Shown here in pieces: positions 1,202 to 20,021 of a stretch of 20,557 bases of DNA. The number at the start of each line of letters is the position of its first letter. Positions within the stretch are counted from its first letter, which is position 1. Origin of the DNA: a virus. The stretch spans positions 1 through 20,557 of IMG/VR virus record IMGVR_UViG_3300044799_000499; one strand, written 5' to 3'. The notes beneath the pieces are model-generated. The model did not search any database. It was not told where the DNA came from and worked only from the letters and a program-made list of their open reading frames with translations. Position numbers and translations under genes: made by a program.

Positions 1202-1202
1202 C

Positions 1203-1868: not shown

Positions 1869-2794
1869 GCCCTCGCTTCCGTCTTGGCCAAGAATTCCTC
1901 TTTTTTCCTTGAGAAGAATTCAACGGCCTGGGCGATATCAGATTCACTCTGCAGGCTCTGGATGTAGGCCAACTGTTTTTTCCCGAGTTTGTATCCGGCC
2001 TTGGCGAGTTCATCCAGGATGTCGTTCAGCTGAGAGGGTTTGGCGGTTTCCGGGATTGCCGAGTCGGGTTTAACGGCGGGTTTCTCAATCGGCTTTCCGG
2101 TATTGAGCCATATCATAAACAACTTTCCGGTCTCGATCGTAGGCCTGAAGATTTGACCGTCGAAAAGTCCGGTTCGGTCTTTGGAGCTCATGGCATTGTG
2201 GTCCATCGCTAGATCGAGGACAGTTGTAAACTCGTACTCCATGCCATCGCGCTGGATCGGAGCCATGCCGACTTTTCTTGGGACCTTCTTACCCCCAGTA
2301 TCCTCGAGGATATAATCCTGTTTACTTCGCATCGTAGCGATAATATGAATGTCACTCTGGAGGAGGCGGGCCCGAAACTGTTCATGCTCTTTTGTGATCG
2401 GGCCCCAGTTTGTATACTGATTTGAATGCGGCCGGGCATCCAGGGCCGTCTTCTTGTCGAGGAGCCCGCCCTCGCCCGCCCAAGCATGTGAGATCGAATC
2501 GAGAATCAGGACGTCATATCCGTCCTTCTCCGCGGTAGCGATTCCATCGAGGTATTTTTGAATCGTGTACGGCGGGTCAATCTCAAGGATGTCAAAGACG
2601 ATTCCGGCCAGAGGGCCGCTCTCGATGTCCGCGTAGAGGGAGGCGGACTTGTTCTCGGTGTCGATGACCGCAATCCGCTTGCCTATAGCAGCTGCAATAA
2701 GGAGGCTCGAGAAGGTCTTGCCGCTGCCGCTGGGCCCGGTCAATGCGATCTTGAGCCGTACCTGCCGACGCTCTGCCTTTCTAAATGGACTCAT
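1865..2794 (-). CDS. Sak4-like RecA-fold ATPase (phage recombinase)
   Basis: This is a P-loop ATPase of 309 residues. Walker A is GPSGSGKT at 20-27 and Walker B is DVLILDS at 94-100, followed by ISHAW. The Asp-Thr-Glu after strand 2 (VIDTEN, 43-48) matches the Sak4/AAA_24 type of phage nucleotide-binding proteins, which are reduced RecA/Rad51 relatives working in single-strand annealing together with an SSB. The C-terminal part (about 235-309) is a proline-rich linker followed by a small helical domain with LAKAGYKLGKKQLAYIQSL, which may bind DNA or a partner. The start has a good ribosome site (GAGGAG). The gene lies between an SSB-like and a RecB-like gene, the usual neighbours of Sak4. A role in replication-linked repair and genome exchange is inferred. 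Confidence 0.85.
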   Translation of the reverse strand: MSPFRKAERRQVRLKIALTGPSGSGKTFSSLLIAAAIGKRIAVIDTENKSASLYADIESGPLAGIVFDILEIDPPYTIQKYLDGIATAEKDGYDVLILDSISHAWAGEGGLLDKKTALDARPHSNQYTNWGPITKEHEQFRARLLQSDIHIIATMRSKQDYILEDTGGKKVPRKVGMAPIQRDGMEYEFTTVLDLAMDHNAMSSKDRTGLFDGQIFRPTIETGKLFMIWLNTGKPIEKPAVKPDSAIPETAKPSQLNDILDELAKAGYKLGKKQLAYIQSLQSESDIAQAVEFFSRKKEEFLAKTEARA

Positions 2795-2795
2795 G

Positions 2796-3203
2796 TTAAT
2801 CTCCTCTCAAACCAGCCGGCAGATCGTCTTCGCCCATATCGTCGCCCGGCTCTCTGCCGGAAGGCGCGATATTCTTGAGCTTCGGCCAGGTCTTTGTCGA
2901 GTCGCCCTGATCTACGACGTGGACGACGTCCGCCTCAAAAACGGAACCTACAACCTCGACTTCACTGCTGTGTTCAACGCGCAGGGCCGCAAGAAGATCG
3001 ACATATCGGTCTTCCCACGGCAGAAAGTTGTCGATGATGTAAAACTCTCCATCATCATTAAGACCGATAGCATAAATCGTGACCGTTGAAAATTTTTTGC
3101 CTCCCTTCCCGGTCTTCTCGGCAAGTTCCGGTTCACGGTTAAGCCGAAACTGATAGTGACCTTCCGGGATTTTTGTTTGTGGCGGTGGAAATTTTACAGA
3201 CAT
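2796..3203 (-). CDS. SSB-like protein of the Sak4 recombination module (DUF669-type)
   Basis: This 135-residue protein has a beta-rich body (residues 8-110) that starts KIPEGHYQFRL and continues with a GKGGKKFSTVTIYAI strand pair. The ending is acidic (GDDMGEDDLP, 120-129). 'IPEGxYxxxL...' followed by a 'GKG' turn and an acidic tail is the look of small phage single-strand-binding proteins found beside Sak4 and RecB-like genes. The tail lacks the classical terminal Asp-Asp-x-x-Phe. The start at 3203 has GGAGG upstream. It precedes the ATPase by 1 bp, suggesting coupled translation. The role of binding ssDNA and recruiting the annealing ATPase is inferred from fold-like pattern and context. 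Confidence 0.65.
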   Translation of the reverse strand: MSVKFPPPQTKIPEGHYQFRLNREPELAEKTGKGGKKFSTVTIYAIGLNDDGEFYIIDNFLPWEDRYVDLLAALRVEHSSEVEVVGSVFEADVVHVVDQGDSTKTWPKLKNIAPSGREPGDDMGEDDLPAGLRGD

Positions 3204-3228
3204 GCGATATCCTCCTATGGAAAAAAAA

Positions 3229-4014
3229 TTAACTTCTGTGAAATTCTTCCAATCTTTGTTCTAAAGATTTAAAATTCTTCAGTTCTTTTTCCCAAACTAT
3301 AAACGTCTCAAATCCAAATGGTTTAAAAGCATTTATTCTTATCTGAGAATCTTCTTTTTTATGCCAATAATTTCCGAACATTTCTATAATTTTTTTCTTT
3401 CCATTGATATTTATAAAATCGGGATTTTTTCTTCCTATAATGATTTCGCCATTTCCTACATATTTATATTCACCAGGGAATATTCTATTGAGAATTGTGG
3501 CGAGTTTAGTCTCGGGCCGCGTAGGCCTAATTTGGGTGGCTTTACAAAGGGCGGCAATATGTTCCGGGGATTTCGGACCCTTCATTTTATATTTTGTTTC
3601 TTCTGATAGTTTCCACGTTTTCCCTTTCATTGATTTACTTATTTTTATTTTTGTTTCCTTAGAATGTTTTTTCCCCAAACGATATTTATTTCCTTTTGCA
3701 CTTTCGCTAATTTTTCTTTTTGTTTGTTCGGATACTGGATGACCCATTTGAGAAATGCTCATTTTTCGGCATGCTTCATCAGAATATTTTTTCCTATTGG
3801 TCAATCGATCATTTTCTCCAAAAAACAATTTCATCTGTTTTTCATCGGGGTCCGGCCCTTCAACAGGCTGTCGGCCATTTAATTGAGCCAAGATTTTTTT
3901 ACCTTCTTGCTCAACGCCGAGCGGCCCCGCGTAGTGACAGGAATAGCAAAGGTTTTCCGAAAACATATCACTATCGTGGTAGGCAATTTTGCAGGAATCA
4001 CAAAAACGGATCAT
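3229..4014 (-). CDS. Zinc finger / NUMOD3 / Vsr-like homing endonuclease
   Basis: The protein has 261 residues from the ATG at 4014, which overlaps the preceding stop (ATGA) and has AAGGG upstream; the frame is open further upstream but without support. There are three parts. Residues 1-30 hold a C4-type finger (C5, C8, C23, C26). Residues 76-145 hold repeated NUMOD3-like DNA-binding motifs (SDEACRKMSISQMGHPVSEQ, HSKETKIKISKSMKGK, LSEETKYKM). Residues 164-258 form a Vsr-fold nuclease with Glu168, Asp199 in KNPDF, and EMFGNYWH ending in His218. The last part matches the EDxHD group of phage homing endonucleases, which nick or cut intron-less or intron-bearing target sites and spread by repair. 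The DNA is AT-rich from about residue 58 onward, unlike the N-terminal part and the neighbours, a sign of recent insertion. Target site unknown. Confidence 0.8.
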   Translation of the reverse strand: MIRFCDSCKIAYHDSDMFSENLCYSCHYAGPLGVEQEGKKILAQLNGRQPVEGPDPDEKQMKLFFGENDRLTNRKKYSDEACRKMSISQMGHPVSEQTKRKISESAKGNKYRLGKKHSKETKIKISKSMKGKTWKLSEETKYKMKGPKSPEHIAALCKATQIRPTRPETKLATILNRIFPGEYKYVGNGEIIIGRKNPDFININGKKKIIEMFGNYWHKKEDSQIRINAFKPFGFETFIVWEKELKNFKSLEQRLEEFHRS

Positions 4015-4370
4015 GGCTTTCCCTTGCCGACAACCGCGATGAACGCTTTTTCTTTTTCGTCCCACCGCGCCGGAATATGAAGCGGTCCGTTGGCTGTCTT
4101 GGGCTTGATCCTGTGGACGAACTTGCCACAGACCAACCACCAGGTTGATGGGTTGGGCTTGGAGATCAAAAAAGAATTATCGCCGCGGATGTGTGAAGGC
4201 TTGAGTTTAAGAACGCGGTTTACGTCATCCCAGAAAATATCAACTGCCTTCATCGCGTGAAGATTGGCCAAGTCCGCGCAAGCCTTATTGAAAAAGATGC
4301 CTGATTTGCCCAGGCTTATCGTCGGCTCGGTGAAATGGACGTGCGTATGTGTGATTTGTTCGAACGGCAT
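4011..4370 (-). CDS. Unknown phage early protein (119 aa)
   Basis: The start at 4370 has a very strong ribosome site (AAAAGGAGG). The protein is mixed alpha/beta, with a first part HVHFTEPTISLGKSGIFFNKAC that looks like short beta strands, then a charged part ending EKEKAFIAVVGKGKP. There are no Cys pairs, no membrane segment and no catalytic motif that I recognise. It sits between a one-TM peptide and the homing endonuclease in the early operon and overlaps the latter by ATGA. Small early proteins in this position often modify host functions, but nothing in the sequence shows that here. Confidence 0.75.
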   Translation of the reverse strand: MPFEQITHTHVHFTEPTISLGKSGIFFNKACADLANLHAMKAVDIFWDDVNRVLKLKPSHIRGDNSFLISKPNPSTWWLVCGKFVHRIKPKTANGPLHIPARWDEKEKAFIAVVGKGKP

Positions 4371-4383
4371 GATCGTCCTCCTT

Positions 4384-4518
4384 TTATTCCGGATAATCCT
4401 TCGACGGCCTCATCCTTTCGATGGCCCGATCCGCTCGGCCCGCGGCCTTGCATAGCGCGAGCGCGCAAATAAAGGCGACTGCTTCTAATCCCAAAACGAT
4501 CCACATCCATGGTTTCAT
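4384..4518 (-). CDS. Small single-TM membrane peptide (44 aa)
   Basis: The short gene starts at the ATG at 4518, which overlaps the preceding stop (ATGA) and has AGGGGAG upstream. The peptide begins MKPWMWIVLGLEAVAFICAL and has one hydrophobic helix (residues 4-22), followed by a charged tail with RADRAIERMRP. This predicts an N-out or N-in single-pass inner-membrane peptide. A longer reading from 4569 exists but overlaps the zinc ribbon gene and has no ribosome site. Function unknown; exclusion or host-membrane effects are possible for early phage peptides of this shape. Confidence 0.6.
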   Translation of the reverse strand: MKPWMWIVLGLEAVAFICALALCKAAGRADRAIERMRPSKDYPE

Positions 4519-4718
4519 GCGCGCTCCCCTAATCCTGGTGGTGGATAACAATATGGGACAACGCGCCAAGGACCTTTAAAAAAATATGAGGTCCGCACGA
4601 GCTTTGTCCCACAGATTGGACAGTAGGCATCCATCAGTCTTGCCGGACAATCAAATCGAAAAGCCACTTTGCATTTAGGACATTTGCCCTGAGTTCTTCC
4701 GTCGTTGATATCAATCAT
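4515..4718 (-). CDS. Small zinc-ribbon protein (67 aa)
   Basis: Two Cys pairs, C13-P-K-C16 and C33-P-I-C36-G, make a classic zinc ribbon of about 25 residues. Behind it is an aromatic and proline-rich tail (SYFFKGPWRVVPYCYPPPG). The start at 4718 has AAGGAGG upstream. It lies in the early operon, 18 bp after the previous gene. The fold suggests nucleic-acid or protein binding; no enzyme motif is present. Confidence 0.72.
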   Translation of the reverse strand: MIDINDGRTQGKCPKCKVAFRFDCPARLMDAYCPICGTKLVRTSYFFKGPWRVVPYCYPPPGLGERA

Positions 4719-4736
4719 GAATCCTCCTTTTGGAAA

Positions 4737-4997
4737 TTATTTTAAAACCCCTACCGACTTCTCCAATTTGACGAGCCACTTCTCATGCTCAGCGAGTCGG
4801 CGGCGGATTTCGACTAACTCGCCGACCCGAACGCGAGATAAATTCCATGCCTTTTTGCGGCATTTCGCCGAGGCGTATTTTTGCCAGGATCGCGTAGGAT
4901 TGATCTTTTTCCGGCAGCCGCAGGCGCATATGCGAATTTCCGCCTTTTGAGCCCCAGAATGCTCAGAACGCGTCTTATGCATTTTCTTTTTTGGCAT
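4737..4997 (-). CDS. Small Cys-rich basic protein with C-terminal helix (86 aa)
   Basis: I place the start at the ATG at 4997, which overlaps the preceding stop (TGATG). A TTG one codon upstream is possible but less likely. The N-terminal half is very basic (MPKKKMHKTR) and contains C24-x-C26-x-C28 and C46, in ICACGCRKK...RSWQKYASAKCRKKAW. This resembles the short zinc-binding motif seen in several phage proteins, 'C.C......R..KY.S.KCR..A'. Residues 58-86 form a heptad-rich helix. The combination suggests a DNA- or RNA-binding dimer. No specific function is known. Confidence 0.7.
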   Translation of the reverse strand: MPKKKMHKTRSEHSGAQKAEIRICACGCRKKINPTRSWQKYASAKCRKKAWNLSRVRVGELVEIRRRLAEHEKWLVKLEKSVGVLK

Positions 4998-5461
4998 CAA
5001 AGGGCCTCTTTGCCGATTTTCCGGTCTAATTCAGCCGCGAGCTCCTGCAACCGGGTCAAATGCCTGTGGATTTCTCCGTATTCTTTTTTTGTCAGCTTGC
5101 CGTCTTTGAAGGCTTTTTCGATGTCTTCGAGCGCATGGCCCCAGAGCACGGTCATGTTGATTTCTTCTCGTTCCCGCGACGCCTCGCAGAGTTTGGCCTG
5201 GGCCTTGGTCACGGGGATATAGCCGCACGGCTCGCAGAAGAACTCCAGGTATTCAACGTCCCCTGTCGCTCGGACAAGATCGATGATCCGGTCCGGTGGC
5301 ATGATGTTCTCGCCGCGGACGTAGCGATAAAGCGTATCGCTCGCGATCTGCATCTCCTTGGCCACGGCGTCGACACGGTATTTTTTCTTGATGATGAAAT
5401 TCACGTAGAGCAGGGCTGAGAATCCCGAAAAGGGGCTGCCATTTAGATTGTGCTCAGACAT
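4997..5461 (-). CDS. CII-like phage regulatory protein (CP76 type)
   Basis: The 154-residue protein has an N-terminal helix-turn-helix region: VDAVAKEMQIASDTLYRYVRGENIMPPDRIIDLVRATGD (about residues 28-68). It then has a middle part with EPCGYIPV and a helical C-terminus (residues 100-154) likely to oligomerise. This order, with the phrase 'YRYVRGE..MPPDRI..LV.ATGD', is typical of the CII-like regulatory family of P2-type and related temperate phages, which bind DNA and help set the lysis-lysogeny choice or early replication. The start at 5461 has GAGGAAAG upstream. It is the third gene of the leftward operon, where such regulators are usual. Confident in family, not in target promoter. Confidence 0.8.
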   Translation of the reverse strand: MSEHNLNGSPFSGFSALLYVNFIIKKKYRVDAVAKEMQIASDTLYRYVRGENIMPPDRIIDLVRATGDVEYLEFFCEPCGYIPVTKAQAKLCEASREREEINMTVLWGHALEDIEKAFKDGKLTKKEYGEIHRHLTRLQELAAELDRKIGKEAL

Positions 5462-5488
5462 TCTTTCCTCTATCGTTTGCTCATGAGT

Positions 5489-5686
5489 TCAAAATGGTTT
5501 TATTTTGGACTTGTTCGACCTGACGAAGTCAGCCAGGTCCTGGTCCTCGAACCGGAGCTGCCCCCCGACCTTGACGAACCGGATCTTCCTCCGCCTGCAG
5601 AGCGCCTGGAGTGTGCCGCGGGATATGCTGAGGATCTCCGTCACCTGCTTGGGATTAAGAAGCTTCGGGAGTGCGATGGTGTTCAA
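5489..5686 (-). CDS. Excisionase / MerR-like HTH DNA-binding protein (65 aa)
   Basis: The protein is one winged-helix domain of the HTH_17 type: LLNPKQVTEILSISRGTLQALCRRRKIRFVKVGGQLRFEDQDLADFV. The helix-turn-helix spans residues 10-32 and the wing covers FVKVGGQLRF (38-47). The start is TTG at 5686, which overlaps the stop of the Cro-like gene (AATTGA) and has GGAG 7 nt upstream, so translation is probably coupled. Proteins of this size in temperate phages commonly serve as recombination directionality factors (Xis) or small regulators. The integrase is on the other strand 4 kb away, so the Xis role is inferred, not shown. Confidence 0.75.
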   Translation of the reverse strand: MNTIALPKLLNPKQVTEILSISRGTLQALCRRRKIRFVKVGGQLRFEDQDLADFVRSNKSKIKPF

Positions 5687-5898
5687 TTCTGATCTCCGAT
5701 TCGATTTTCGGGATAAAGAAGATTGAGCAGAGGGATTCCCGTTATTTCGCTCGCTTTGCAGGCCAACTTTTTTGAGAATGAACGTTTACCCGAGAGAATT
5801 TCGCTGAGGTATGATTCGGATATCCCGAGAAGTTCGGCTAAACCTTTGCTCGTAAGCCCTTTTTTTTCTTTATATTCCGCCAGATTCGCTATTTTCAT
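5683..5898 (-). CDS. Cro-like helix-turn-helix repressor (71 aa)
   Basis: The start is the ATG at 5898, with AAGGAG 7 nt before it; the frame extends upstream into the operator region, but that is not used. Residues 16-62 form an XRE-type HTH: LTSKGLAELLGISESYLSEILSGKRSFSKK. The recognition helix ISESYLSEIL.GKR is almost identical to that of the S24 repressor on the other strand (ISNSYLNEIL.GKR). By analogy with lambda Cro and CI, this protein probably binds the same TTCG-N7-CGAA operators and turns down the repressor promoter when the lytic programme starts. It is the first gene of the leftward operon and has no C-terminal domain. Confidence 0.85.
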   Translation of the reverse strand: MKIANLAEYKEKKGLTSKGLAELLGISESYLSEILSGKRSFSKKLACKASEITGIPLLNLLYPENRIGDQN

Positions 5899-5912
5899 CT
5901 CTAGTCTCCTTG

Positions 5913-5944
5913 TATATATTCGCAACTTACGAATCATTTGTCAA
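5913..5944 (-). promoter_or_regulatory. Leftward early promoter
   Basis: On the minus strand a perfect -35 box TTGACA lies at 5939-5944. A TA-rich -10 region follows (TATATA at 5913-5918, or GAATAT or AATATA offset by a few bases, the former preceded by an extended -10 TGC). Transcription would begin just before the ribosome site of the Cro-like gene. Operator 1 fills the spacer, so bound repressor would block RNA polymerase. The spacing to TATATA is 20 bp, longer than ideal, so the exact -10 hexamer is uncertain. Confidence 0.65.
5919..5933. promoter_or_regulatory. Operator 1 of the genetic switch (TTCG-N7-CGAA)
   Basis: The site is TTCGCAACTTACGAA. It has 4-bp inverted half-sites with a 7-bp centre and sits inside the spacer of the leftward promoter. 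Its complement TTCGTAAGTTGCGAA aligns with operators 2 and 3. Confidence 0.75.
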
Positions 5945-5983: not shown

Positions 5984-6012
5984 TTGAAACTTCGCTGATT
6001 GCGAAATTAAAA
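5984..6012 (+). promoter_or_regulatory. Rightward repressor promoter (candidate)
   Basis: TTGAAA at 5984-5989 and a weak -10 TTAAAA at 6007-6012 are separated by 17 bp, and operator 3 fits exactly in between. The predicted transcript start, near 6019, would make the repressor mRNA almost leaderless if translation begins at the ATG at 6024. The weak -10 box is like a maintenance promoter. No other pair of boxes in the region is better. Confidence 0.4.
5991..6005. promoter_or_regulatory. Operator 3 of the genetic switch
   Basis: The site is TTCGCTGATTGCGAA, the third copy of TTCG-N7-CGAA. It shares TTGCGAA with operator 2 and with the complement of operator 1. It lies 6 bp before the first possible repressor start codon. 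Confidence 0.75.
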
Positions 6013-6761
6013 TGATTATCGGAATGGGAATCCGCGAGAATATAAAACGAGAGATAGATATCCGTTATTCAGGAAACTTTTCGCGCTTCGCCAAAGAACA
6101 TGGAATATCAAATTCTTATTTGAATGAAATCTTAAACGGAAAAAGACGCTTTAATGAGACTTGGCTGGGCAAAATATCGCAAGCCCTCGGCATTCCCACT
6201 TATCAACTCTTCTCGGACGAGCCGCTCGTTCCCAAATCCGAGGCTCAAAAGTACCCGGCTATAATTGAATCCTTTCCTAGCTCATTGGTCCAGGAAGAGC
6301 ATGCAAAGTACAGCACCCGGGATGAATTCATACCGATCCGGATCCTGGAGGATGCAGCTTCACTCGGCCACGGGGCCGTCGTTTCGCAGGAAAGGACACG
6401 AGGCTACGCCCTTATCTATAAGCACGCCCTTAATAAAAAAGCCTGGACCCAGGATCGTCAGGATGAAAAGATCATCGCTTTGTTCGTCCAAGGCGATTCG
6501 ATGGTTCCCACGATCCAAGGTGGGAGTCTCGTGACTATTGATATCGAGGACAAAATAGAAGTACAAAATTATAAACTTTATGCTGTAGAGATCCCGGACG
6601 AAGGTGTGACCATTAAGCGCGTCTACCGCCGGGATGACGATTTCATGCTTTTCGCGGACAATAAGGACTTCCCCGGGTTCCCTCGCTGCCTGCATATGGA
6701 CGGCCTGAACTATAATCCAATCTGTGGGAAGGTGGTTTGGGCGTGGAATAGATTAGATTAG
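6012..6761 (+). CDS. S24-type phage repressor (XRE HTH plus LexA-like domain)
   Basis: The protein has up to 249 residues. Residues 24-65 form an XRE helix-turn-helix with recognition helix ISNSYLNEILNGKR. A linker of about 40 residues follows. Residues 108-249 form the LexA/CI-like S24 domain, with catalytic Ser163 in GDSMVPT and Lys202 in VTIKRV. In this family RecA-ssDNA stimulates self-cleavage, releasing the repressor. The usual Ala-Gly or Cys-Gly cleavage pair is not obvious; the corresponding stretch is AASLGHG (115-121), so induction may differ. Neither the ATG at 6012 nor the one at 6024 (245 aa) has a Shine-Dalgarno site. The gene starts the rightward lysogeny block, divergent from the Cro-like gene, with three operators between. 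Confidence 0.9.
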   Translation: MIIGMGIRENIKREIDIRYSGNFSRFAKEHGISNSYLNEILNGKRRFNETWLGKISQALGIPTYQLFSDEPLVPKSEAQKYPAIIESFPSSLVQEEHAKYSTRDEFIPIRILEDAASLGHGAVVSQERTRGYALIYKHALNKKAWTQDRQDEKIIALFVQGDSMVPTIQGGSLVTIDIEDKIEVQNYKLYAVEIPDEGVTIKRVYRRDDDFMLFADNKDFPGFPRCLHMDGLNYNPICGKVVWAWNRLD

Positions 6762-7355: not shown

Positions 7356-8990
7356 TTGAGTTCCCAAAACACTCTTTATTATGGGGACAATCTTGACATT
7401 CTGAAACGGTATATCAAAGACGAGAGCGTTGATCTCGTCTATCTCGATCCGCCTTTTAAGAGCAGTCAAAACTACAACATCCTTTTCAAAGAGAAGAACG
7501 GATCTCAAGCCGCCTCGCAGATCCGGGCCTTTGAGGACACCTGGACCTGGAGCCAGGACGATGAGGCGGTCTATGCCGACTTAGTAACAAAGGGCGGGAA
7601 GGTTGCCGATGTATTGCAGGCCTTCCGCACTTTTCTTGGCCCCTGCGATATGCTCGCCTACCTTGTCATGATGGCCCCGCGTCTGGCCGAGATGCGGCGA
7701 GTCATGAAGTCATCCGCAGCTATCTACCTGCATTGTGACCCGGCCGCAAGCCATTATTTGAAGATGCTTCTTGACGCCGTATTTGGCCCTGAAAATTTTT
7801 TTAATGAAATAATCTGGAAGAGGAGCCACGCGCATTGTAGCGCAAACCGATTTGGGGCCAATCATGACGTGATACTTTTTTATGGAAGATCGGGGAAAAT
7901 CAACTGGAATATGGTTTTTCAAAATTATGATTCCGAATATACAGATAAACATTATCGACACGTTGACAAAGAAGGAAGGCGCTATAAACATGAAAATCCT
8001 ACAGGCGCAGGGATATCAAAAGGAGCTACCGGGCAACCTTGGCGGGGCATCGACCCTACGGCAAAAGGCCGCCATTGGGCGAAGCCTCCCGAAGAAATGG
8101 AAAAATTAGACGCGCAAGGTCTTATTCATTGGCCCGATAAACCCGGAGCTTGGCCATATATTAAAATTTATCTCGATGAGATGTCTGGAATTCCCTGCCA
8201 AGATACATGGAGCGATATTGACCCGATTAATATGATGGCAAAAGAACGGCTGGGGTATCCGACGCAAAAGCCGGAGGCGCTTCTTGAAAGAATAATCCAG
8301 GCCAGCAGCAACGAGGGGGATTTAGTGCTTGATCCATTCTGCGGCTGTGGCACCACTATCGCCGCCGCCCAAAAGCTCAAGCGCCAGTGGATCGGGATAG
8401 ACATTACGTTCTTAGCGATCACACTAATAAAGCAGCGAATGAGAGACGCCTTCGGAAATCAGGCTCAGTTCAAAGTGGTCGGAGAGCCCGTCAGTGTGCC
8501 GGATGCCCGAGCCCTGGCGGAGTCTGAACCCTATCAGTTTCAGTGGTGGGCGCTGGACCTCGTGGGCGCGCGTCCGGTCGAGGAAAAGAAGGGCGCTGAT
8601 AAAGGGATTGACGGAAAGATTATCTTTCAGGGGGATGCTCCCGGAATTTTTGAGACGGTCATCATCTCGGTCAAGGCCGGTCATCTACTGGCCCAATATG
8701 TCCGGGATCTCCGCGGAGTCGTCGAACGAGAGAAGGCGGCTATTGGCGTCCTGATCTCTATGGAAGACCCGACCAAGCCGATGCAAACCGAAGCTGTTAC
8801 GGCCGGATTCTTTGAATCGAAGACCTGGGGGAAGAAGTATCCGAAGATCCAACTTCTGACGATAGCCGAACTCCTGGCGGGGAAGAAAATCGAGATGCCT
8901 CCGATCAGACAGGTCGATGCGACTTTCAAGAAGGCGGAGAAATTTAAGGGACAAAAGGCGGAGCAGCTAGAGATCAAAGAGCCGAAGTGA
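7356..8990 (+). CDS. DNA methyltransferase fused to an Mrr-like nuclease domain
   Basis: The start is TTG at 7356 with AGGAG 8 nt upstream; no better ATG lies nearby. Of 544 residues, 8-365 form an N6-adenine/N4-cytosine methyltransferase of the beta order. The catalytic DPPF is at 31-34, a target-recognition region spans about 155-295, then YPTQKP (301-306) and the SAM-binding DPFCGCGT (326-333). Residues 395-512 form a second domain with GADKGIDG (413-420) and VIISVKAG (435-442), then [16 protein letters not shown]. This resembles the Mrr-type PD-(D/E)XK fold (Asp417/Asp419 and Lys440). Such proteins could be modification enzymes with a bound nuclease-like domain, active or not. The target-recognition DNA is more AT-rich than both ends. 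A phage role in protecting its DNA from host restriction is likely. Confidence 0.85.
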
Positions 8991-9333: not shown

Positions 9334-10371
9334 ATGTCCCTCCGCCGGATCGGGAAATATTATTATATCGATCTCCGAGTCCGCGGCGCCAAGAAGCGGA
9401 TCCGCCGGGCCCTCCATACCTCAGATAAAGTCGACGCCCTGGACAAGTACAAGGAAGAAAAAAAGAGGATCCTGGCCGAATATCTGAGGAAGGATCTCAA
9501 GCTCGAGGACTTCGCCAAGAAATATCTCGACTGGGCTTGGAGCTCGAAGCCGGCCAGCGCGGACCGCGAAGAGCAGCGGATCGACAAGATCAAGGAATTC
9601 TTTAAGTCCCTGGGAATCGAGTATCTCTCGCAGATCACGCCCTATCATATAGAGCAGCTCAAGGCGAAACTGGGCGAGACCGGCTTCTCCCATGATCCCA
9701 AGACGCCGCGGCTGGCTGCCAAGGCCACGATCAACCGATATCTGCAGCTCCTCCGCGGGATGTTCTACAAGGCGATCGACTGGGAAGTCTACCGGGGCCC
9801 GAATCCTGTCCGGAAGGTCAAATTCTTTAAAGAAAAAACCGAGACTAAAGCTCTGAGCCATGCCCAGGTCAAAAAGGTCCTCGAGGCCGCCCGGGATATT
9901 GCCAAGAATCCGGGATCTCAGCTTCAGAGGATCTTCCCGGACGTTATCGATTTCGCCATTAATACAGGTCTCCGGAAGTCCGAGATCTTGAATCTCGAGT
10001 GGAAGGACCTCCAGGGAGACGAGATCTCGATCCGCGGGAAGGGAGACCGGATCCGGGTCGTCCCCCTCAATGTCGCGGCCCGGACGATCGTCGGCCGGCA
10101 GTCAAAGAAAGACGTCTTTATTTTCGATATCCCAAACCGCGGCCAGCCGGACCTCATGAGGCGGACGGTCAGTCAGATCAGGAAACGGACCGGAATCGAT
10201 TTTCATCTTCATCTTTTGAGGCATTATTTCGCGACGTCTCTCGTCGAAAAAGGGATCGACCTAATCACGATCGCCGCGATTCTCGGCCATAGCAAATTAA
10301 CGACGAGCCTGATCTATTCGCACACAGATAAAGAGAAAATAAGAAAGGCTATTGATAGTCTTTCAAATTAA
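9334..10371 (+). CDS. int: Tyrosine integrase
   Basis: The 345-residue protein has the three-part build of lambda-type integrases. A small beta-rich arm-binding N-terminus spans about residues 1-48 (RRIGKYYYIDLRVRGAKKRI). A SAM-like core-binding domain spans about 55-165. The catalytic domain (about 172-345) carries the set Arg214 (TGLRKSEI), Lys236 (RGKGDR), His293-LL-Arg296, His319 (LGHSKL) and Tyr328 (SLIYSH), which makes the covalent link to DNA. All key residues are present, so it should be active. The start codon has no clear ribosome site, so expression may depend on the upstream gene. It reads toward attP, which lies 280 bp past its end, as in many temperate phages that target tRNA genes. 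Confidence 0.95.
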   Translation: MSLRRIGKYYYIDLRVRGAKKRIRRALHTSDKVDALDKYKEEKKRILAEYLRKDLKLEDFAKKYLDWAWSSKPASADREEQRIDKIKEFFKSLGIEYLSQITPYHIEQLKAKLGETGFSHDPKTPRLAAKATINRYLQLLRGMFYKAIDWEVYRGPNPVRKVKFFKEKTETKALSHAQVKKVLEAARDIAKNPGSQLQRIFPDVIDFAINTGLRKSEILNLEWKDLQGDEISIRGKGDRIRVVPLNVAARTIVGRQSKKDVFIFDIPNRGQPDLMRRTVSQIRKRTGIDFHLHLLRHYFATSLVEKGIDLITIAAILGHSKLTTSLIYSHTDKEKIRKAIDSLSN

Positions 10372-10386
10372 AGGAGAGATATTAAA

Positions 10387-10572
10387 ATGAGCGCTTATTT
10401 CAAATGCAAAGTCTGCGGTGATTCACACCTTTCGCCAATTGGGTTTGGAAGTAAAAATTCCTTTGATACAACAACACTAACCGGCAATCAATTCCAATGC
10501 CCTAAAACCGGGAAAATGGCCTCCTATGACAAAGCAAATATGTATTGGAGAGAAGAAGAGAAAAAAAAGTAA
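10387..10572 (+). CDS. Small Cys-containing protein between int and attP (61 aa)
   Basis: The start has AAAGGAGAG upstream. The sequence has C7-K-V-C10-G-D-S-H and C38-P, so three Cys and a His could bind one zinc. It ends in a charged tail (WREEEKKK). The DNA is AT-rich and the stop lies one base before the first arm-site candidate. Position suggests a recombination accessory protein or a cargo gene; sequence does not decide. Confidence 0.65.
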   Translation: MSAYFKCKVCGDSHLSPIGFGSKNSFDTTTLTGNQFQCPKTGKMASYDKANMYWREEEKKK

Positions 10573-10573
10573 T

Positions 10574-10590
10574 TGGGCCGATTCTGGGCA
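10574..10590 (+). repeat. Left arm-type site candidate (TGGGC pair)
   Basis: The site is TGGGCCGATTCTGGGCA. The two TGGGC motifs start 11 bp apart, one helical turn. The first eleven bases recur at 10819-10829 beside the first right-arm site. Confidence 0.55.
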
Positions 10591-10650
10591 GACGACGGAG
10601 GGACATTCGGCTTAAATAGTTGATAATTAATCCGTTTCCGTTTCCGCCCA

Positions 10651-10697
10651 AGGGACTGAAAATCCCTGCGTCGACGGTTCGATTCCGCCCCTCGCCA
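10651..10697 (+). other. att core: 3' half of tRNA-Phe(GAA)-like gene
   Basis: The fragment begins at the anticodon stem: AGGGA at 10651-10655, loop CTGAAAA (anticodon GAA), TCCCT at 10663-10667. Next come a 5-nt variable part, a T arm GACGG-TTCGATT-CCGCC (10673-10689) with one A.C mismatch, the acceptor strand CCTCGCC (10690-10696) and discriminator A. No CCA follows. The 5' half is missing, so this is not a working tRNA. Temperate phages carry such a 3' part so that integration rebuilds the host tRNA. The matching host gene should end in the same bases and begin near GGCGAGG. Confidence 0.8.
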
Positions 10698-10807
10698 TCT
10701 TCTTTTATTCCCCATATTTCCCTGACAAATGAATAACTTATAGAGACGTCCGCACTTTATAAGGGCTTTCAATTCATTGCAAATCATTATAATCTGTGAC
10801 AAGAAAA

Positions 10808-10823
10808 TGGGCAAAAAGTGGGC
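10808..10823 (+). repeat. Right arm-type site candidate 1
   Basis: The site is TGGGCAAAAAGTGGGC, identical in 16 bp to the next right site. TGGGC motifs start at 10808 and 10819, 11 bp apart. It lies about 110 bp from the core end. Confidence 0.55.
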
Positions 10824-10888
10824 CGATTCGTTTCTCGGGGAAAAGCCGCCCCCTATATAAAAATGATCGCTTTTTAAATAAGGGAAGT

Positions 10889-10904
10889 TGGGCAAAAAGT
10901 GGGC
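10889..10904 (+). repeat. Right arm-type site candidate 2
   Basis: This is an exact 16-bp copy of the site at 10808-10823, 81 bp further on. The TGGGC motifs start at 10889 and 10900. Confidence 0.55.
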
Positions 10905-10928
10905 AAAAAAAAGTTCCATGGTTTTTTC

Positions 10929-11123
10929 TTATTGAAAATGCCAGCCGCCGTCGTAGAATCTCCACTTGGCCAGATACGCCCCGCAGAAGAAGGCGCAGAT
11001 CAGGGCGATGAAACGATGGTCGACCCGACCACCGAAGAAACCGAAATTCAAGCCCTCGGCGAGCAGGGCGTAGGCGGTAAAGAGAATGATGAAATTGAGC
11101 CAGCCGGGCAGAGTTTTAATCAT
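10929..11123 (-). CDS. Small two-TM membrane protein, holin candidate (64 aa)
   Basis: The start at 11123 has AAGGAGA upstream. Two hydrophobic helices (about residues 8-24, WLNFIILFTAYALLAEG, and 37-52, RFIALICAFFCGAYLA) are joined by a loop with Gly-Gly and Arg-Val-Asp. A short C-terminal tail follows. It is the last gene of the virion operon, after the tail tip proteins, a usual place for a holin. The length is near the short end of class II holins. No endolysin gene is in the window to confirm a lysis cassette, so the role is uncertain. Confidence 0.6.
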   Translation of the reverse strand: MIKTLPGWLNFIILFTAYALLAEGLNFGFFGGRVDHRFIALICAFFCGAYLAKWRFYDGGWHFQ

Positions 11124-14098: not shown

Positions 14099-14886
14099 AG
14101 CCAAGCCTCCTTGAAATTGAACGTGATCGTGCAGTCCGCCCCGGTGTAATGAAACTTGTTCTCGCGGCCGCCGAGCAGCCGGAGAAAGAAGCCGGAAAAT
14201 TTGTCGATGATGTTCGTCGAGCCGCGCTTGACCGTGCCCAGGGCGCAGTCGACCTCGATCGTCGTCCCGGTCAGGGCGCCGGCGTCTTGGATCCTAAAGC
14301 TCTTCGCGCCATCCGTCACGGCCTCCAAAGTGAAGTCGGTATTATTCGCCTGATTCAGGATGGTAATGACCGGATAGACTTCGATGTTGCCGAGAACGTC
14401 GAATTGAAAAATATCCAACGGCGAACCTGGCGTGGGGCCAAACTGTTTTGATTTTGCCGAGACCGCGTACCAAAAGGGATCGATGCAGAGAAAATTAATA
14501 GAGACTTCCCCGTACCGGTAATTGACCTGGGAGGGGAAGGCATGGTTGATCTCCGCGATCTTGAGGACGTTGATCTGCCGGCCGCGGTCCTGGAGCTTGA
14601 AATTCTCCTTGATGATCTCTTTCGCCAGATTGTCCCAGGCGGTGTTGTAGGCTGCATCCGTCGCGGCCCAGATCTTGCCCGTGACCTCGATCGTTCGGGT
14701 CGTCATCTTGCCGTCCGAGACATCCCGGGCCCCGTGCGCGAAGGCCACGTCCATGAGCCCCTGTTTTTTGGCGATCGGCTCCGAGCGGATCTCAAATTTA
14801 CTTGGGAGATAAAACTCATTGCCGACGGAGTCGATGATCTTCAATCTCTCGTCAGGGGCGGCCGTATAATAAACAGGGATGCTCAT
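14095..14886 (-). CDS. Distal tail protein (Dit)
   Basis: The protein has 263 residues and starts at 14886, sharing one base with the tape measure stop (TGATG). The N-terminal half is the Sipho_tail-type fold: FYLPSKFEIRSEPIAKKQGLMDVAFAHGARDVSDGK, then TRTIEVTGKIWA and a helix with AWDNLAKEI. The C-terminal half is a beta sandwich: YPVITILNQANNTDFTLEA, ending TITFNFKEAW. Dit forms the hexameric ring that joins the tube to the baseplate. The order tape measure, Dit, hub, fibre is standard for siphovirus tails, and the length is usual. Confidence 0.85.
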   Translation of the reverse strand: MSIPVYYTAAPDERLKIIDSVGNEFYLPSKFEIRSEPIAKKQGLMDVAFAHGARDVSDGKMTTRTIEVTGKIWAATDAAYNTAWDNLAKEIIKENFKLQDRGRQINVLKIAEINHAFPSQVNYRYGEVSINFLCIDPFWYAVSAKSKQFGPTPGSPLDIFQFDVLGNIEVYPVITILNQANNTDFTLEAVTDGAKSFRIQDAGALTGTTIEVDCALGTVKRGSTNIIDKFSGFFLRLLGGRENKFHYTGADCTITFNFKEAWL

Positions 14887-16949
14887 CAGCGTCTTCCTCT
14901 CTGGATCGCTTCCTGGGTCTTGCGGGCCAGCTTCTCCGAGATCTCATCGATGTCCCATGCCGTTCTGATATCTCCGGAAAAATAAACATACTGCTTAAAG
15001 TTTATTGAACCGCCGGCGCCGGCCGCAGCCATGCCAAACCTTCCGATCGGCAAGACAGCCTCCGGTCCTCTTTCGCCGATCATCGCCAACGTCGGCCTCG
15101 TAACTATTCCGCCTTCGCCGAAAGCTTTAATTTTTGAAAATAGAGCTGTGACGCCTGCGATGGCTACGCCGGCCAGGACTAAATTTAACGGAAATGGAAC
15201 GGACTTCATGACCGAGGAAATAGCATGAGCTATCGCCTCGGCTTTTTTGGCGAGAATTTCTTTTGCCGAGGCCATGAGGGTAGTGGTCATTAACTGCCCG
15301 ATCCCAGTTATCGCGCTCTTGACAAAACCGGAAAACGCTTCGCCCATAGCTTTCAAAATGTTTTTATGCCCTTCACCCCAGATCATAAATCCCTCTAGGC
15401 TTCTCGTAACAAAATCTCCGAATATCGAAAGGCCGGTCTCCGTTATCCCAGTCATCAATTCTTGGATGTCGGTCGAGAGTTTAAGGAGTAGGTCCTTGCC
15501 GTACTGAATATCATCAACAAGTTTAAGGATTGTGTTCTTTGAAGTTTCGCCGATAAAAGAAAAAGTGACGCTGCCCGCGTTTTTTATCGCCTCGAATATA
15601 GTGATGATGCTATTCCATTTGTCCCACTGGAATGGGATCGCGGCCACGGTCGTAGAGATATTTTCAAGAACGGGGGGCAGTTTCTTAGCGCCCTCCAGAA
15701 ACTTTTTAAATTCATCAGTGCCGCCTGCCTGGGCCTTTTTTTGTTTTTCGAGTTTTGTTTTATATTCTTCCGTCGCAGCGGCAAGATTTTTTTTGCTTAT
15801 AAGCTCCTCTTTCCCAAACATGACGGAAATTTTAAGCGCCTGAGCATCCTCATGATATTTCGCCAACAGCTTTTTATAGGCTTCGGCAGTCAATCCAGCC
15901 TTTTTCGCGGCTAGATCCATGACGTCTGCCGATTGCTTTCTCATATCGATCCCGTATTGGCGAAGCGTAGCCCCCTCGTCCTTCTCCGCCTCCCGGAGCT
16001 GATAAATAGTAAGTGCCAATAATCCGACCGCCCCGATGGCAAGAGCAACGGGATTCGTAGCCAACCAAAAGAGATTTTTTCCCAGGCTTATCACCCCGTC
16101 CACAACCTTCGGGAAAATCATCACCATCGGCCCGAGGATGGTCATGAGCCCGCCCAGCCCCGCGAGGATCGGGACCAGGGTCTTCATGAGCCCCTGATGA
16201 GCATCGATCCAATCCAAGACGCGCTTCGTTATGTCCCCGATCTTCGTTACGAGCGGCAACAGGACGGGGATAAGCCGTGCGCCGATCGTCTCCATCGTCT
16301 CGCCGATATTGACTTTCAAGATCTTCATCTGGCCGGCGAATGTCTGGCCCGCGGCCACGGCCGCGCCGCCGAAGGCTTTGTCCAAGTCTTTCAGCATTAG
16401 ATTAAAATCGCCGGTCCGCTTTGTCTCTTCCGAGAGCACAACCCCCTGGCGTCCGAGAAGGTCCATGTGGCCCGTGACGGCTCGGCCGACTGCCATCGTG
16501 GCTTCGGCCAGGTTGATCTCTTCGCCCGTCGCCCTGGCCCGCGCCGTCGCCATGTCCAGGATCCTCGGGATGAGTGCCGCGATCTGCTTTTCGTTCAGAC
16601 CGAACGTGGCCAGGCGCGCTTCGGAGATTTTAATCTCTTCATCCTCAATCCCGGTCGTTTGCTGTAAGGCTTCGGCGTACTTAAGAAGCATATCCGCGCC
16701 GGTTTTCGATGCCCCCTCGACGTTTGAAAGCGCCTGACGAAGCTTCATCTCTGCGGCCTCCGCCTTCACGGCCTCGGATATGCTTTTCGCAAAAAAAGCG
16801 GTCATCACCCCGCCGATCGCCGTCATGGTCAAGCCGATCTTGCGAAACTCTTTCTCATGCGCTTCGAGTTTCGCCTTGATCTTGCCCAGTCCGGCTTCGA
16901 GTTCCGCGACGTCGACGCCGATCAAAACAAGGAGCGATTTTACGGTCAT
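14886..16949 (-). CDS. Tape measure protein
   Basis: This 687-residue protein is the longest in the window. The first 60 residues contain a helical part with IGVDVAELEAGLGKIKAKLEAH, typical of phage tape measure starts. A conserved region follows with AAVAAGQTFAGQMKILKVNI and GETMETIGARLIPVLLPL, then hydrophobic helices (about residues 255-320) that could insert into the host membrane. Near the end is the usual FGEGGIVTRPTLAMIGERGP motif, where GGIV.RPT and GERGPE are widely conserved. It fixes tail length and is ejected with the DNA. By the usual 0.15 nm per residue, the tail would be about 100 nm. The start overlaps the stop of the frameshifted chaperone (ATGA), so translation is probably coupled. 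Confidence 0.93.
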   Translation of the reverse strand: MTVKSLLVLIGVDVAELEAGLGKIKAKLEAHEKEFRKIGLTMTAIGGVMTAFFAKSISEAVKAEAAEMKLRQALSNVEGASKTGADMLLKYAEALQQTTGIEDEEIKISEARLATFGLNEKQIAALIPRILDMATARARATGEEINLAEATMAVGRAVTGHMDLLGRQGVVLSEETKRTGDFNLMLKDLDKAFGGAAVAAGQTFAGQMKILKVNIGETMETIGARLIPVLLPLVTKIGDITKRVLDWIDAHQGLMKTLVPILAGLGGLMTILGPMVMIFPKVVDGVISLGKNLFWLATNPVALAIGAVGLLALTIYQLREAEKDEGATLRQYGIDMRKQSADVMDLAAKKAGLTAEAYKKLLAKYHEDAQALKISVMFGKEELISKKNLAAATEEYKTKLEKQKKAQAGGTDEFKKFLEGAKKLPPVLENISTTVAAIPFQWDKWNSIITIFEAIKNAGSVTFSFIGETSKNTILKLVDDIQYGKDLLLKLSTDIQELMTGITETGLSIFGDFVTRSLEGFMIWGEGHKNILKAMGEAFSGFVKSAITGIGQLMTTTLMASAKEILAKKAEAIAHAISSVMKSVPFPLNLVLAGVAIAGVTALFSKIKAFGEGGIVTRPTLAMIGERGPEAVLPIGRFGMAAAGAGGSINFKQYVYFSGDIRTAWDIDEISEKLARKTQEAIQRGRR

Positions 16950-17559
16950 TCGATCTTCAACCTTTTCTTGATGTCCTTAAGTTCCTTTTTCGCCGTCTTC
17001 TTGCCCGCCCTTTTTTTCTTCATTTTCGGAAAAACGGAAGGCAGAAGATCCCGCGGCTGGACGGACTTCCCGGAAAGAACACTCACGATCTGGGCCGCCA
17101 GCCAGGCCGTCCGCTGCCATTCAGCTTTATCGCGTTCAACCTCGACCTCGTTCCAGGCTTCGAGCCGTTCTCGAAACTCGACCGGCGTCAGGTCTTCAAA
17201 TTCGGCGGGAGAGATCCCGATTCTGAGGGCCGCACGTCTTGCTCGTCCGATGTCTGAGTCATCGTTTTTTTTTCCGTCCCGACCTGCTCCGAAATCGCTT
17301 CGATGATAATTTCGACGATGCCCATGACGGTGTAGCGGTCCGGGATCTGCTCGTCGATGAGATCAGAAACGCGCTCGACCGTCAGGCCCTCCTCCTCGTG
17401 GACGAGGCCCGCCCAGGCGACCGTTGGCATTTCATCGACCTTTAGATTCAGGAGATCCGAAATGTCCCGGTCCCCGAACTTCTCCCGGATGAGCCGGATC
17501 GCCTTGAACCCGAATTTGAGCCGGCGCGGCCGGTCGAGATTGAGAATAAACTCTCTCAT
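16946..17559 (-). CDS. Tail assembly chaperone GT fusion, made by -1 frameshift
   Basis: A -1 shift at the A9 run joins the G frame to an uninterrupted second frame ending at TGA 16948-16946, giving about 204 residues. I translated the second frame by hand. After the shift it reads through DIGRARRAALRIGISPAEF, then EDLTPVEFRERLEAWNEVEVE, then WQRTAWLAAQIVSVLSG, and a lysine-rich end. The phrase LTP.EF...LEAW...RTAWLAAQI is typical of the T part of phage tail chaperones. The +1 frame hits a stop at once, so only -1 works. The long form binds the tape measure protein and guides tube assembly, and the short form G is made in excess. The stop overlaps the tape measure start. Confidence 0.85.
17188..17559 (-). 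CDS. Tail assembly chaperone G (short form)
   Basis: This 123-residue protein is the unshifted product. Residues 1-95 form a helical domain: RRLKFGFKAIRLIREKFGD, then ISDLLNLKVDEMPTVAWAGL and VERVSDLIDEQIPDR, fitting the phage tail chaperone family. The last about 25 residues after the A9 run are read only when no shift occurs (TMTQTSDEQDVRPSESGSLP) and look disordered. The start at 17559 has no strong ribosome site and follows the previous stop by 2 bp. The gene lies between the tube and tape measure genes, where this pair is always found. Confidence 0.85.
   Translation of the reverse strand: MREFILNLDRPRRLKFGFKAIRLIREKFGDRDISDLLNLKVDEMPTVAWAGLVHEEEGLTVERVSDLIDEQIPDRYTVMGIVEIIIEAISEQVGTEKKTMTQTSDEQDVRPSESGSLPPNLKT
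17265..17273 (-). other. Slippery A9 run for the G/GT frameshift
   Basis: On the minus strand the run reads GG-AAAAAAAAA-CG, which contains the heptamer AAAAAAA in the right phase (GAA AAA AAA ACG). A one-base backward slip changes ACG ATG ACT to AAC GAT GAC and opens the T frame. I see no certain downstream pseudoknot by eye. Confidence 0.78.
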
Positions 17560-17561
17560 GC

Positions 17562-17891
17562 TCAGGCGACCCGGACGACCGCGATCGTCAGCGCCACGAC
17601 GCCGCTGTAGGTGAGCTGAACCTTGTCGGCAGCATCGTTGAACCGGTCCTTCGGGAAAGGCCCGATCATCCGCTCCCCGGCGTTCGGGATGGCCACCGCG
17701 ACGTCGTGATCAAAGCCCTGGTTGCAGGCGGTCTGCGAATTCACGGTCACGGTCTGCGGGCTCGTATGCCCGTTTTTGATGTGGATGAAATCCTTCCCGC
17801 TATTGACAAACGCATCGCCGCCAGCGGCCGCGGCCCCGTACGTCGGATTCAGCCCGGGAAGGGAAACACTTTGGACAGTTAAGTCTGCCAT
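17562..17891 (-). CDS. Small beta-rich virion protein next to the tail tube (109 aa)
   Basis: The start at 17891 has GGAGGAG upstream. The protein is rich in Val, Thr, Ala and Gly, with a pattern of beta strands: FIHIKNGHTSPQTVTVNSQT, then NAGERMIGPFPKDRF, and VQLTYSGVVALTIAVVRV at the end. 'HxKNG..SP.TVTV.SQ..C.QGF' followed by 'GERMIGPF....FND' recurs in small structural proteins of actinophage-like and other siphoviruses. The fold is probably an Ig-like or decoration sandwich. Lying between tail tube and chaperone it may decorate the tail or head. Exact location in the virion is unknown. Confidence 0.65.
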   Translation of the reverse strand: MADLTVQSVSLPGLNPTYGAAAAGGDAFVNSGKDFIHIKNGHTSPQTVTVNSQTACNQGFDHDVAVAIPNAGERMIGPFPKDRFNDAADKVQLTYSGVVALTIAVVRVA

Positions 17892-17903
17892 ATTCTCCTC
17901 CTA

Positions 17904-18317
17904 TCAGGTGATCGTAATGACGCCGGACGATTCGAGCGAGAAGCTGAACTTCGCAGCATCCTTTTCCGAGGCCTTGATCCCGCCCTTCCCGAATACGTAG
18001 GCGCCCGTGTAGGTCTTCGCCTTCGTGATGACCTGGGCTTCGAGCATCACGCTATCCGGAGCGTCGACCCAGCCGCCGAAGATTTCGAGGATCCCGGCGT
18101 CGTCTTCGATGAGGAAGCAGTCACAATCGACGCTCAGGTTCCGGTTTCCGGGAAGCGATTCTTCCCATCCCTGGGAATCCTTGTCCGTGACTTCGATCTT
18201 GCCGCGGTTGAAGTTGATCGTCGCGTCGCTCTGGCCGCCGATCTTCGTCCAGACGGGGGAAGCGTGGGTTCCGGTGTTGACCTTGAGATAAACATCCAAG
18301 CCTTTAGTTTTTGCCAT
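17904..18317 (-). CDS. Major tail tube protein
   Basis: The 137-residue protein begins MAKTKGLDVYLKVNTGTHASPVWTKIGGQ, followed by SDATINFNRGKIEVTDKDSQGW and a C-terminal beta strand region ending SFSLESSGVITIT. 'G.D..LKVNTGT..SPVWT.IGG..DA.I...R..IEVT.KDS.GW.E.LPG.R..S.' is the characteristic pattern of TP901-1-type tail tube proteins. The start at 18317 has AGGAGG upstream. It stands before the chaperone and tape measure genes, as expected. It stacks into hexameric rings. Confidence 0.9.
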   Translation of the reverse strand: MAKTKGLDVYLKVNTGTHASPVWTKIGGQSDATINFNRGKIEVTDKDSQGWEESLPGNRNLSVDCDCFLIEDDAGILEIFGGWVDAPDSVMLEAQVITKAKTYTGAYVFGKGGIKASEKDAAKFSFSLESSGVITIT

Positions 18318-18848
18318 TTAAACCTCCTGTAAATTTGCTTCAGCGGCTTTCGCCCTGAAGATATATTTCAACTCTACGTGATAGAGATTTTGTCCAGCAA
18401 TCCTGTCGAACTTATCGTGGCCCTGGACCGCGTGAAGATAAATGACCAGGCCGTCGTGCTCAACCTCGCGATTGCCGGCAAGGATCATGAAGTCGATCAT
18501 GCGCCGAAGCTCGCCGAATGAGCCGGCGTAAATTTGAACGGCGTAGCAGTAATAGATATCATCCGGCCCGCCGATCTCAAGCGCGAATAAATGGACAGGA
18601 CAAAGAACGCCCTGCGCGAGATCGTCCGGCTGCGTCTCCCAGGCCGGGAAATCCTTGACCAAACCGCGAATCGTTTTTCCGATATCGATCGGAGACGTGA
18701 ACCGCTGCTCCTGCTTCGCCTTCTCTTTCTCAAGTTCCTGGTCGATCAGGGCGTCGAATGCCGCTTCCGTTTCGGACAGGGGCTCGTCCGACTGGAAAGG
18801 TTCGGCTTCGATTATTTCTTCCGGATCGATTTTTTTTCTCTTGGCCAT
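18318..18848 (-). CDS. Unknown virion-operon protein with acidic N-terminus (176 aa)
   Basis: The start at 18848 has GAGGAG upstream. The first 45 residues are low-complexity and acidic (PEEIIEAEPFQSDEPLSE, then IDQELEKEKAKQEQ). From about residue 65 there is an ordered part: FPAWETQPDDLAQGVLCPVHLFALE, then DDIYYCYAVQIYAGSFGELRRMIDF and a beta end with LYHVELKYIF. It lies between the tail terminator and tail tube genes with no intergenic gap to the tube gene. It may be a second terminator-like or tail completion protein, but no known family is clear to me. Confidence 0.7.
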   Translation of the reverse strand: MAKRKKIDPEEIIEAEPFQSDEPLSETEAAFDALIDQELEKEKAKQEQRFTSPIDIGKTIRGLVKDFPAWETQPDDLAQGVLCPVHLFALEIGGPDDIYYCYAVQIYAGSFGELRRMIDFMILAGNREVEHDGLVIYLHAVQGHDKFDRIAGQNLYHVELKYIFRAKAAEANLQEV

Positions 18849-18849
18849 A

Positions 18850-19239
18850 TCAAAGCTCCTCGATGAGATATTTCATTTCCAGGATCCCATGCCTGGTCAC
18901 GCCGTCGATATCGATGATGATCTGGTTTGTCTCCATGTCCTGGAAAACGACGTTGAAGTCCGAGCCCAGGGCCGGATAGGTCGCCGTCAGGATCTCGAGC
19001 ACGGAGGCCATCATCTCAGCGACTTCTTTCTTGCCCGGATACTGGGACCAGAAATCGATTGTAGCCAGGACGGTCTGGCCGGGCTTTGACTTGTCTGACC
19101 AGGGCGTGCCGCGGATCCCGCCCAGGATGATATAGGGATAGACTGGCTGATCTGGATGATCGTCATGGACACGGAAAGACGTCTCGGCCGCGATCTTGTC
19201 GCCGATCCATTTGGTGAGAGGCAGCACGGGAGATTTCAT
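18850..19239 (-). CDS. Tail terminator (DUF3168-type)
   Basis: The 129-residue protein has the usual order of this family. It begins PLTKWIGDKIAAETSFRVHDDHPDQPVYPYIILGG.RG (split between a helix and first strands), then QTVLATIDFWSQYPGKKEV, then a helix with MMASVLEIL and the end NQIIIDIDGVTRHGILEMKYLI. Tail terminators form a ring that caps the tube and joins it to the head. The start overlaps the preceding stop (ATGA). The position between the gp10-like gene and the tube gene is standard. Confidence 0.8.
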   Translation of the reverse strand: MKSPVLPLTKWIGDKIAAETSFRVHDDHPDQPVYPYIILGGIRGTPWSDKSKPGQTVLATIDFWSQYPGKKEVAEMMASVLEILTATYPALGSDFNVVFQDMETNQIIIDIDGVTRHGILEMKYLIEEL

Positions 19240-19682
19240 TTTTCGAGGATCCTCTTGAGCCGGTCGAAAAATTCACCCTCGATGGAAAAGAAGGCCGGAT
19301 TCAAATACGGCCTGGCCGGTAGGCCGCGCTTTGCGATCGCCCTGGCCACAAGAAAGACCGGGATCTTATGCTTCCGCGCCCAGTCCTCGAGCGCTTCCAT
19401 CGGCGGGAAATGCGGCCGCGTCCCGAATTCGACGTAGGGGGCATAGGGAAACGGCGACCCGATCTCTGCGCTTAATCCGTTCGGCGTCGTCTCCGCAATA
19501 ATCGAGTTCCGGAGATTTCCGGTATCGATCGCCTTGAGCGCCCGGGCATTATCCTGGGCCTGGGTTTTGATTTGCAGCGCCGAGTAGAGGACTTCAGCCT
19601 TCACGCCGGCAGTCTTCGATTTCTGGCGCTCAAGCTCTTTCATGAGTGCGTCCATGCCCTTAAGCTTGATACTGACTTTCAT
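19236..19682 (-). CDS. HK97 gp10-like tail/neck protein
   Basis: I choose the ATG at 19682, which overlaps the preceding stop (ATGA); the longer frame adds nine residues without support. The 148-residue protein has a helical start (KLKGMDALMKELERQKSKTAG) and then the family signature. That signature is LYSALQIKTQAQDNARALKAIDTGNLRNSI, followed by the strand pair PNGLSAEIGSPFPYAPYVEFGT. The end is ARPYLNPAF followed by a helix. 'DTG.L..SI...' and 'YA.YVEFGT...' are the key motifs. It helps complete the head-tail junction. Confidence 0.88.
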   Translation of the reverse strand: MKVSIKLKGMDALMKELERQKSKTAGVKAEVLYSALQIKTQAQDNARALKAIDTGNLRNSIIAETTPNGLSAEIGSPFPYAPYVEFGTRPHFPPMEALEDWARKHKIPVFLVARAIAKRGLPARPYLNPAFFSIEGEFFDRLKRILEK

Positions 19683-20020
19683 TCGCCGCCCTCTTTCGCC
19701 TCGATGCACAGAAGCTCCAGGAATCGCCTTCTCCCGCCCATGTCGATCATCGACTGGACCGAGTAGTAAGCATCCCTATGTTTTATCTGCCATCCCTGCC
19801 CGATATCCGGGCGGTAACGGATTTTGATCCTGTGCGTCACCTCCGCCTGGTTTGCCTGGGCGAAGAAATACTCTCGGCTTGAGATCGGCTCGACCTTGGC
19901 CCAGACCTCCGCGATATCCAGCCAGACAACCCGCTTGCCGTGGTATTCGTCATCGATCTTCGCGGGCCGGCGGATCGTCACGCGTTCGACCATCTCTCCT
20001 ATCTCCGGGAATTTGCCCAT
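19679..20020 (-). CDS. Head-tail joining / head closure protein
   Basis: The 113-residue protein begins MGKFPEIGEMVERVTIRRPAK and has strands with WLDIAEVWAKVEPISSREYFFAQ and HRIKIRYRPDIGQGWQIKHRDAYYSV, then a Gly-Arg turn and FLELLCIEA. This is the pattern of the SPP1 gp16 / HK97 gp7-like joining family: 'I......WA.V.P.S..E...A.....E..H...IRYR......W.I...G..Y.V'. It plugs the connector after DNA packaging. The start follows the connector gene by 1 bp. Confidence 0.85.
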   Translation of the reverse strand: MGKFPEIGEMVERVTIRRPAKIDDEYHGKRVVWLDIAEVWAKVEPISSREYFFAQANQAEVTHRIKIRYRPDIGQGWQIKHRDAYYSVQSMIDMGGRRRFLELLCIEAKEGGE

Positions 20021-20021
20021 G

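Follow-up and report, generated by a model that had tools for sequence, protein, structure and literature searches.

Genetic organization around the attachment site

The virus record IMGVR_UViG_3300044799_000499 carries a tRNA-derived core between an integrase gene and tail-tip genes, which raises the question of whether the sequenced DNA was a prophage or unintegrated phage DNA. We analysed the whole record, a stretch of 20,557 bases referred to here as the window. From left to right, it contains a leftward early operon, a rightward lysogeny block, a non-coding region (10573–10928) and a leftward late block, with the following genes:

1–5937, minus strand: early operon, continuing beyond the left end (exonuclease, Sak4-like ATPase and HTH proteins)
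6012–6761, plus strand: CI-like repressor in the lysogeny block (HTH and S24 peptidase)
7356–8990: DNA methyltransferase in the lysogeny block, beside the integrase (PF01555)
9334–10371, plus strand: tyrosine integrase of 345 aa (PF00589 and PHROG integrase matches)
10387–10572, plus strand: small ORF of 61 aa between the integrase and attP, with no family match
10929–11123, minus strand: small membrane-protein-like ORF, the final late-block gene (52% identity to a homologue in the viral contig L112)
11139–14886, minus strand: tail-tip genes, encoding two unnamed proteins (one at the tail-lysin/Tal position) and Dit
14886–20549, minus strand: tape measure, major tail protein, and head-tail connector and closure genes

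The initial annotation had proposed the order integrase, tRNA-derived core and tail-tip genes, and phage genes flanking the core on either side. All these elements were identified, the genes on the far side being real tail genes, and family matches were obtained on both flanks. The family scans of the window proteins recognised no host gene and no gene for partition or plasmid replication. The integrase (PF00589, E=5e-27; PHROG integrase, E=8e-53) is a full-length ORF with the Phage_integrase domain, and the family alignment keeps the catalytic-domain columns. The neighbouring methyltransferase is fused with a C-terminal restriction-endonuclease-like domain (NA-iREase1/Mrr_cat matches).

Core and arm-type sites of attP

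Within and at the edges of the non-coding region, we identified a tRNA-Phe core flanked by pairs of short direct repeats:

10574–10589, plus strand: predicted P arm (integrase side), one TGGGC pair (sites at 10574 and 10585)
10651–10697, plus strand: attP core, the 3′ half of tRNA-Phe(GAA) from the anticodon stem to the discriminator base
10808–10823, plus strand: predicted P′ arm (tail side), pair 1, TGGGCAAAAAGTGGGC (TGGGC at 10808 and 10819)
10889–10904, plus strand: predicted P′ arm (tail side), pair 2, TGGGCAAAAAGTGGGC (TGGGC at 10889 and 10900)

Because the core represents only half a gene, ARAGORN detected no complete tRNA and Rfam gave no match in the window. The exact core was absent from the viral and genome collections searched, after which the host was traced via integrase relatives and relaxed tRNA searches. 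The best complete tRNA-Phe genes of hosts match the core region at 46 of 50 positions (4 of 50 differ), and the GGCGAGG acceptor stem is common to the core and complete host tRNA-Phe genes. The two bases within the core that differ from the nearest hosts are both present in other host tRNA-Phe genes. Decay of the core, considered for an A-C mismatch in the T-stem, was rejected, as the same bases occur in the complete tRNA-Phe genes of two host genomes (G100 and G198).

The arrangement TGGGC-N6-TGGGC, with sites 11 bp apart, forms three pairs in the 20.6-kb window, all of which flank the core, and the 16-bp TGGGCAAAAAGTGGGC was found twice against 0.15 occurrences expected. When the region was shuffled, no 5-mer gave three pairs at one spacing in any of 300 shuffles with free spacing and homopolymers excluded, while 14 of 2000 shuffles reached three pairs when the spacing was fixed at 11 and homopolymers were permitted. 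The looser arm-pair motif used across the relatives also had a few further occurrences elsewhere in each locus. Repeated site pairs, predicted to be of the arm type, are thus located on both sides of the core, as in an attP.

Relatives with the same organization

Integrase relatives in viral contigs are 44–57% identical to that of the window. A tRNA 3′ end lies within approximately 550 bases of the integrase in 10 of the 13 relatives with downstream DNA read. The tRNA-Phe half was found beside the integrase in L104 and L111, tRNA-Arg(CCT) in L002, L005, L107, L108, L112, L113 and G022 (a complete tRNA in G022), and tRNA-Arg(ACG) in L110. The tRNA-Phe cores of the window (10651–10697), L104, L111, G295 and G148 run with the integrase direction; all tRNA-Arg cores seen (L002, L005, L107, L108, L110, L112, L113 and G022) run against it.

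The nearest tRNA-Phe relative is L104 (IMGVR_UViG_3300009488_000008, also listed as G350), a closed contig of 41 kb. Like the window, it encodes an integrase of the same family (56% identical), has this tRNA-Phe half in the orientation seen in the window, with a single arm pair preceding the core and two following it, and carries leftward late genes beyond attP. Unlike the window, its arm sequence is GGNCAC in place of TGGGC, and its late proteins gave no tblastn match to the late proteins of the window. Most of the other relatives, including those with tRNA-Arg, showed a similar arm layout with variations. In L103, the integrase is 52% identical, and rightward of it are nine homologues of the late genes of the window in the same order and direction.

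It is conceivable, and in our view nearly an even matter, that attP follows a single plan throughout the integrase family even though the tRNA target is exchanged and the tRNA half is turned around with respect to the integrase. If true, related phages would restore the host tRNA with opposite arms. The integrase-family tree has weak support, too weak for counting tRNA-target switches.

Closure of the contigs and gene direction

Closure of the parent contig had been proposed as a check on a circular molecule. The record is identical to the window, a search for a terminal direct repeat found none, and the contig ends without overlap. The window contig itself is therefore open, and it is probably a fragment of about half a genome, being about half the length of its closed relatives. 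Closure was observed in the relatives, four of which have perfect terminal overlaps (144 bp in G349, the same contig as L103; 76 bp in G350; 83 bp in G354; 127 bp in G356) and therefore close on themselves. Such an overlap fits a circle and a terminally redundant virion genome equally well.

The gene directions in the window had also been taken to fit a circle, and the relatives bear this out. Their late genes are located between the portal and att and their early genes between the integrase and terminase, and the early operon continues via the terminase and portal into the head-tail genes. In G349, the terminase and portal occupy the left and right ends, respectively, so that the terminase–portal neighbourhood, intact in G350, crosses the contig ends.

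Integrated counterparts

An integrated border would have host DNA on one side, a complete tRNA or a displaced core, and one arm. The window does not have this form, and two related loci differ from it in this respect. In G022 (IMGVR_UViG_3300031862_000774), the integrase is 52% identical and the late genes are approximately 57% identical to those of the window (56–58% for the homologues of the 11831, 12914 and Dit genes). Here, a complete tRNA-Arg(CCT) with a single arm pair is located on the integrase side, the tail-tip genes lie at the opposite contig end, at a distance of more than 40 kb, and a different element lies beyond the tRNA. In G295:C10, a complete tRNA-Phe is located at 60231, and its 3′ half recurs without mismatch over 50 bp at 150784, after the integrase. 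The 90-kb segment is thus bounded by the complete tRNA-Phe and the core copy, with arm-like TGTGGCG repeats near both. The borders of G022 and G295 look like attL and attR forms, judging from their sequences, and the window is unlike them.

Further genes were noted at both loci. In G295:C10 (60231–150834; L148, L132), a GmrSD restriction gene adjoins the integrase, and the segment is probably a genomic island. The element beyond the tRNA in G022 (L087, 1–8135) encodes an HK97-type capsid (PF05065), a terminase-like protein and its own integrase, and ends 34 bases before tRNA-Arg(CCT), while the full prophage begins on the other side of the same tRNA. This block could represent either a satellite with a capsid gene, located next to a possible helper, or the terminal part of a second prophage. 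Its assignment to the same phage was rejected, as that phage has its own terminase and portal.

Host of the phage

Integrases 58% and 64% identical to that of the window were found in genomes of one Candidatus Aminicenantes class (L097 is titled so). In this class, 105 of 142 genomes contained tRNA-Phe matches to the core at E<=1e-6, and a homologue of the Sak4 protein in G295, a genome of the class, is 71% identical. These similarities place the probable host in an Aminicenantes class, an inferred assignment that applies at class level. On one host contig (G182:C82, 8029–8082; L118), the sequence breaks 12 bases past the tRNA-Phe 3′ end; this break might reflect some cells with an element inserted at tRNA-Phe. 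Among the papers searched, none was devoted to phages of Aminicenantes.

State of the sequenced DNA

As a single contig holds both arms together with phage DNA on either flank, we conclude with high confidence that the locus is the intact attP of a temperate siphophage targeting tRNA-Phe, and that the DNA was unintegrated, whether as virion DNA, a circle or a concatemer, or, less likely, contained a junction of tandem prophages. Free phage DNA is the most likely source of the sequence, ahead of an integrated prophage; the unintegrated source named in the initial annotation agrees with the intact attP, the four closed relatives and the different borders of the integrated relatives. By sequence, virion DNA, an excised circle and a tandem-prophage junction look alike.

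In lambda-type biology, tandem prophages meet at an attP, and two prophages inserted head to tail in a host tRNA-Phe gene would be read as attP at their inner junction. The window contig is open and too short to argue against such an arrangement, and G022 has two elements side by side at one tRNA. However, four relatives close at the length of a single genome, which free DNA accounts for more simply, and the window contains no recognisable host gene, so that we regard a tandem arrangement as very unlikely. The window might instead be a plasmid-prophage in which the tRNA fragment is a fossil or a chance match rather than a working attachment site. ParB-domain proteins are indeed present in G022 and G349, and G349 is without a recognisable tRNA core. 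Against this, an intact integrase adjoins the core, a tRNA 3′ end is found beside most of the related integrases as described above, the integrated element of G295 is bounded by exact core copies, and the scanned window proteins included no recognisable partition or plasmid replication gene; this reading is extremely improbable.

We give next to no weight to an assembly chimera, in which an attL or attR end would have been joined with unrelated phage DNA. Metagenome contigs can be chimeric, and nothing specific indicates this here. The arm sites match on both sides of the core, and a chimera is unlikely because the order integrase, att and late genes repeats in independent contigs (L103, L104, L111 and the tRNA-Arg relatives).

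On the preferred reading of an intact attP on free phage DNA, and by analogy with lambda-type and mycobacteriophage systems, the integrase would bind the core, which spans the tRNA from the anticodon arm to the 3′ end, together with the arm-site pairs flanking it, and would recombine attP with the host tRNA-Phe gene. Crossover, presumably at the core, would open the phage circle there. The tail side, with the tRNA 3′ half, would restore the host tRNA-Phe because the core reads in the integrase direction, and the integrase side would end in a displaced copy of the core, an order such as that in G295. The G295 borders lend indirect support to such recombination with a host tRNA gene. The site provides an integration system open to testing and, for phages of Aminicenantes, a host assignment at the level of class. 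When a metagenomic phage contig has attP in its interior, flanked by both arms, this is good evidence of an origin from unintegrated DNA.

Comparison with known systems

The attP of the window is ordinary temperate-phage biology and belongs to a known kind of system. G295:C10 and G022 are placed among the Islander-type islands and prophages that end in tRNA genes (PMC4383910). Both resemble the window in the integrase family and in the kind of tRNA target, but they show integrated borders, whereas the window shows the joined, unintegrated site. In mycobacteriophage attP sites, a tRNA or tmRNA core is flanked by paired arm sites (PMC3203893). The attP of mycobacteriophage Pixie is like that of the window in its 47 bp core, which copies part of a tRNA gene, and in its direct arm sites, two of which form a pair on one flank, with several more on the other (PMC3203893). 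The two differ in target, tRNA-Lys in Pixie and tRNA-Phe in the window, and on the far side of the core, where the window has two pairs and Pixie three single sites (PMC3203893); the TGGGC arm sequence is the window's own.
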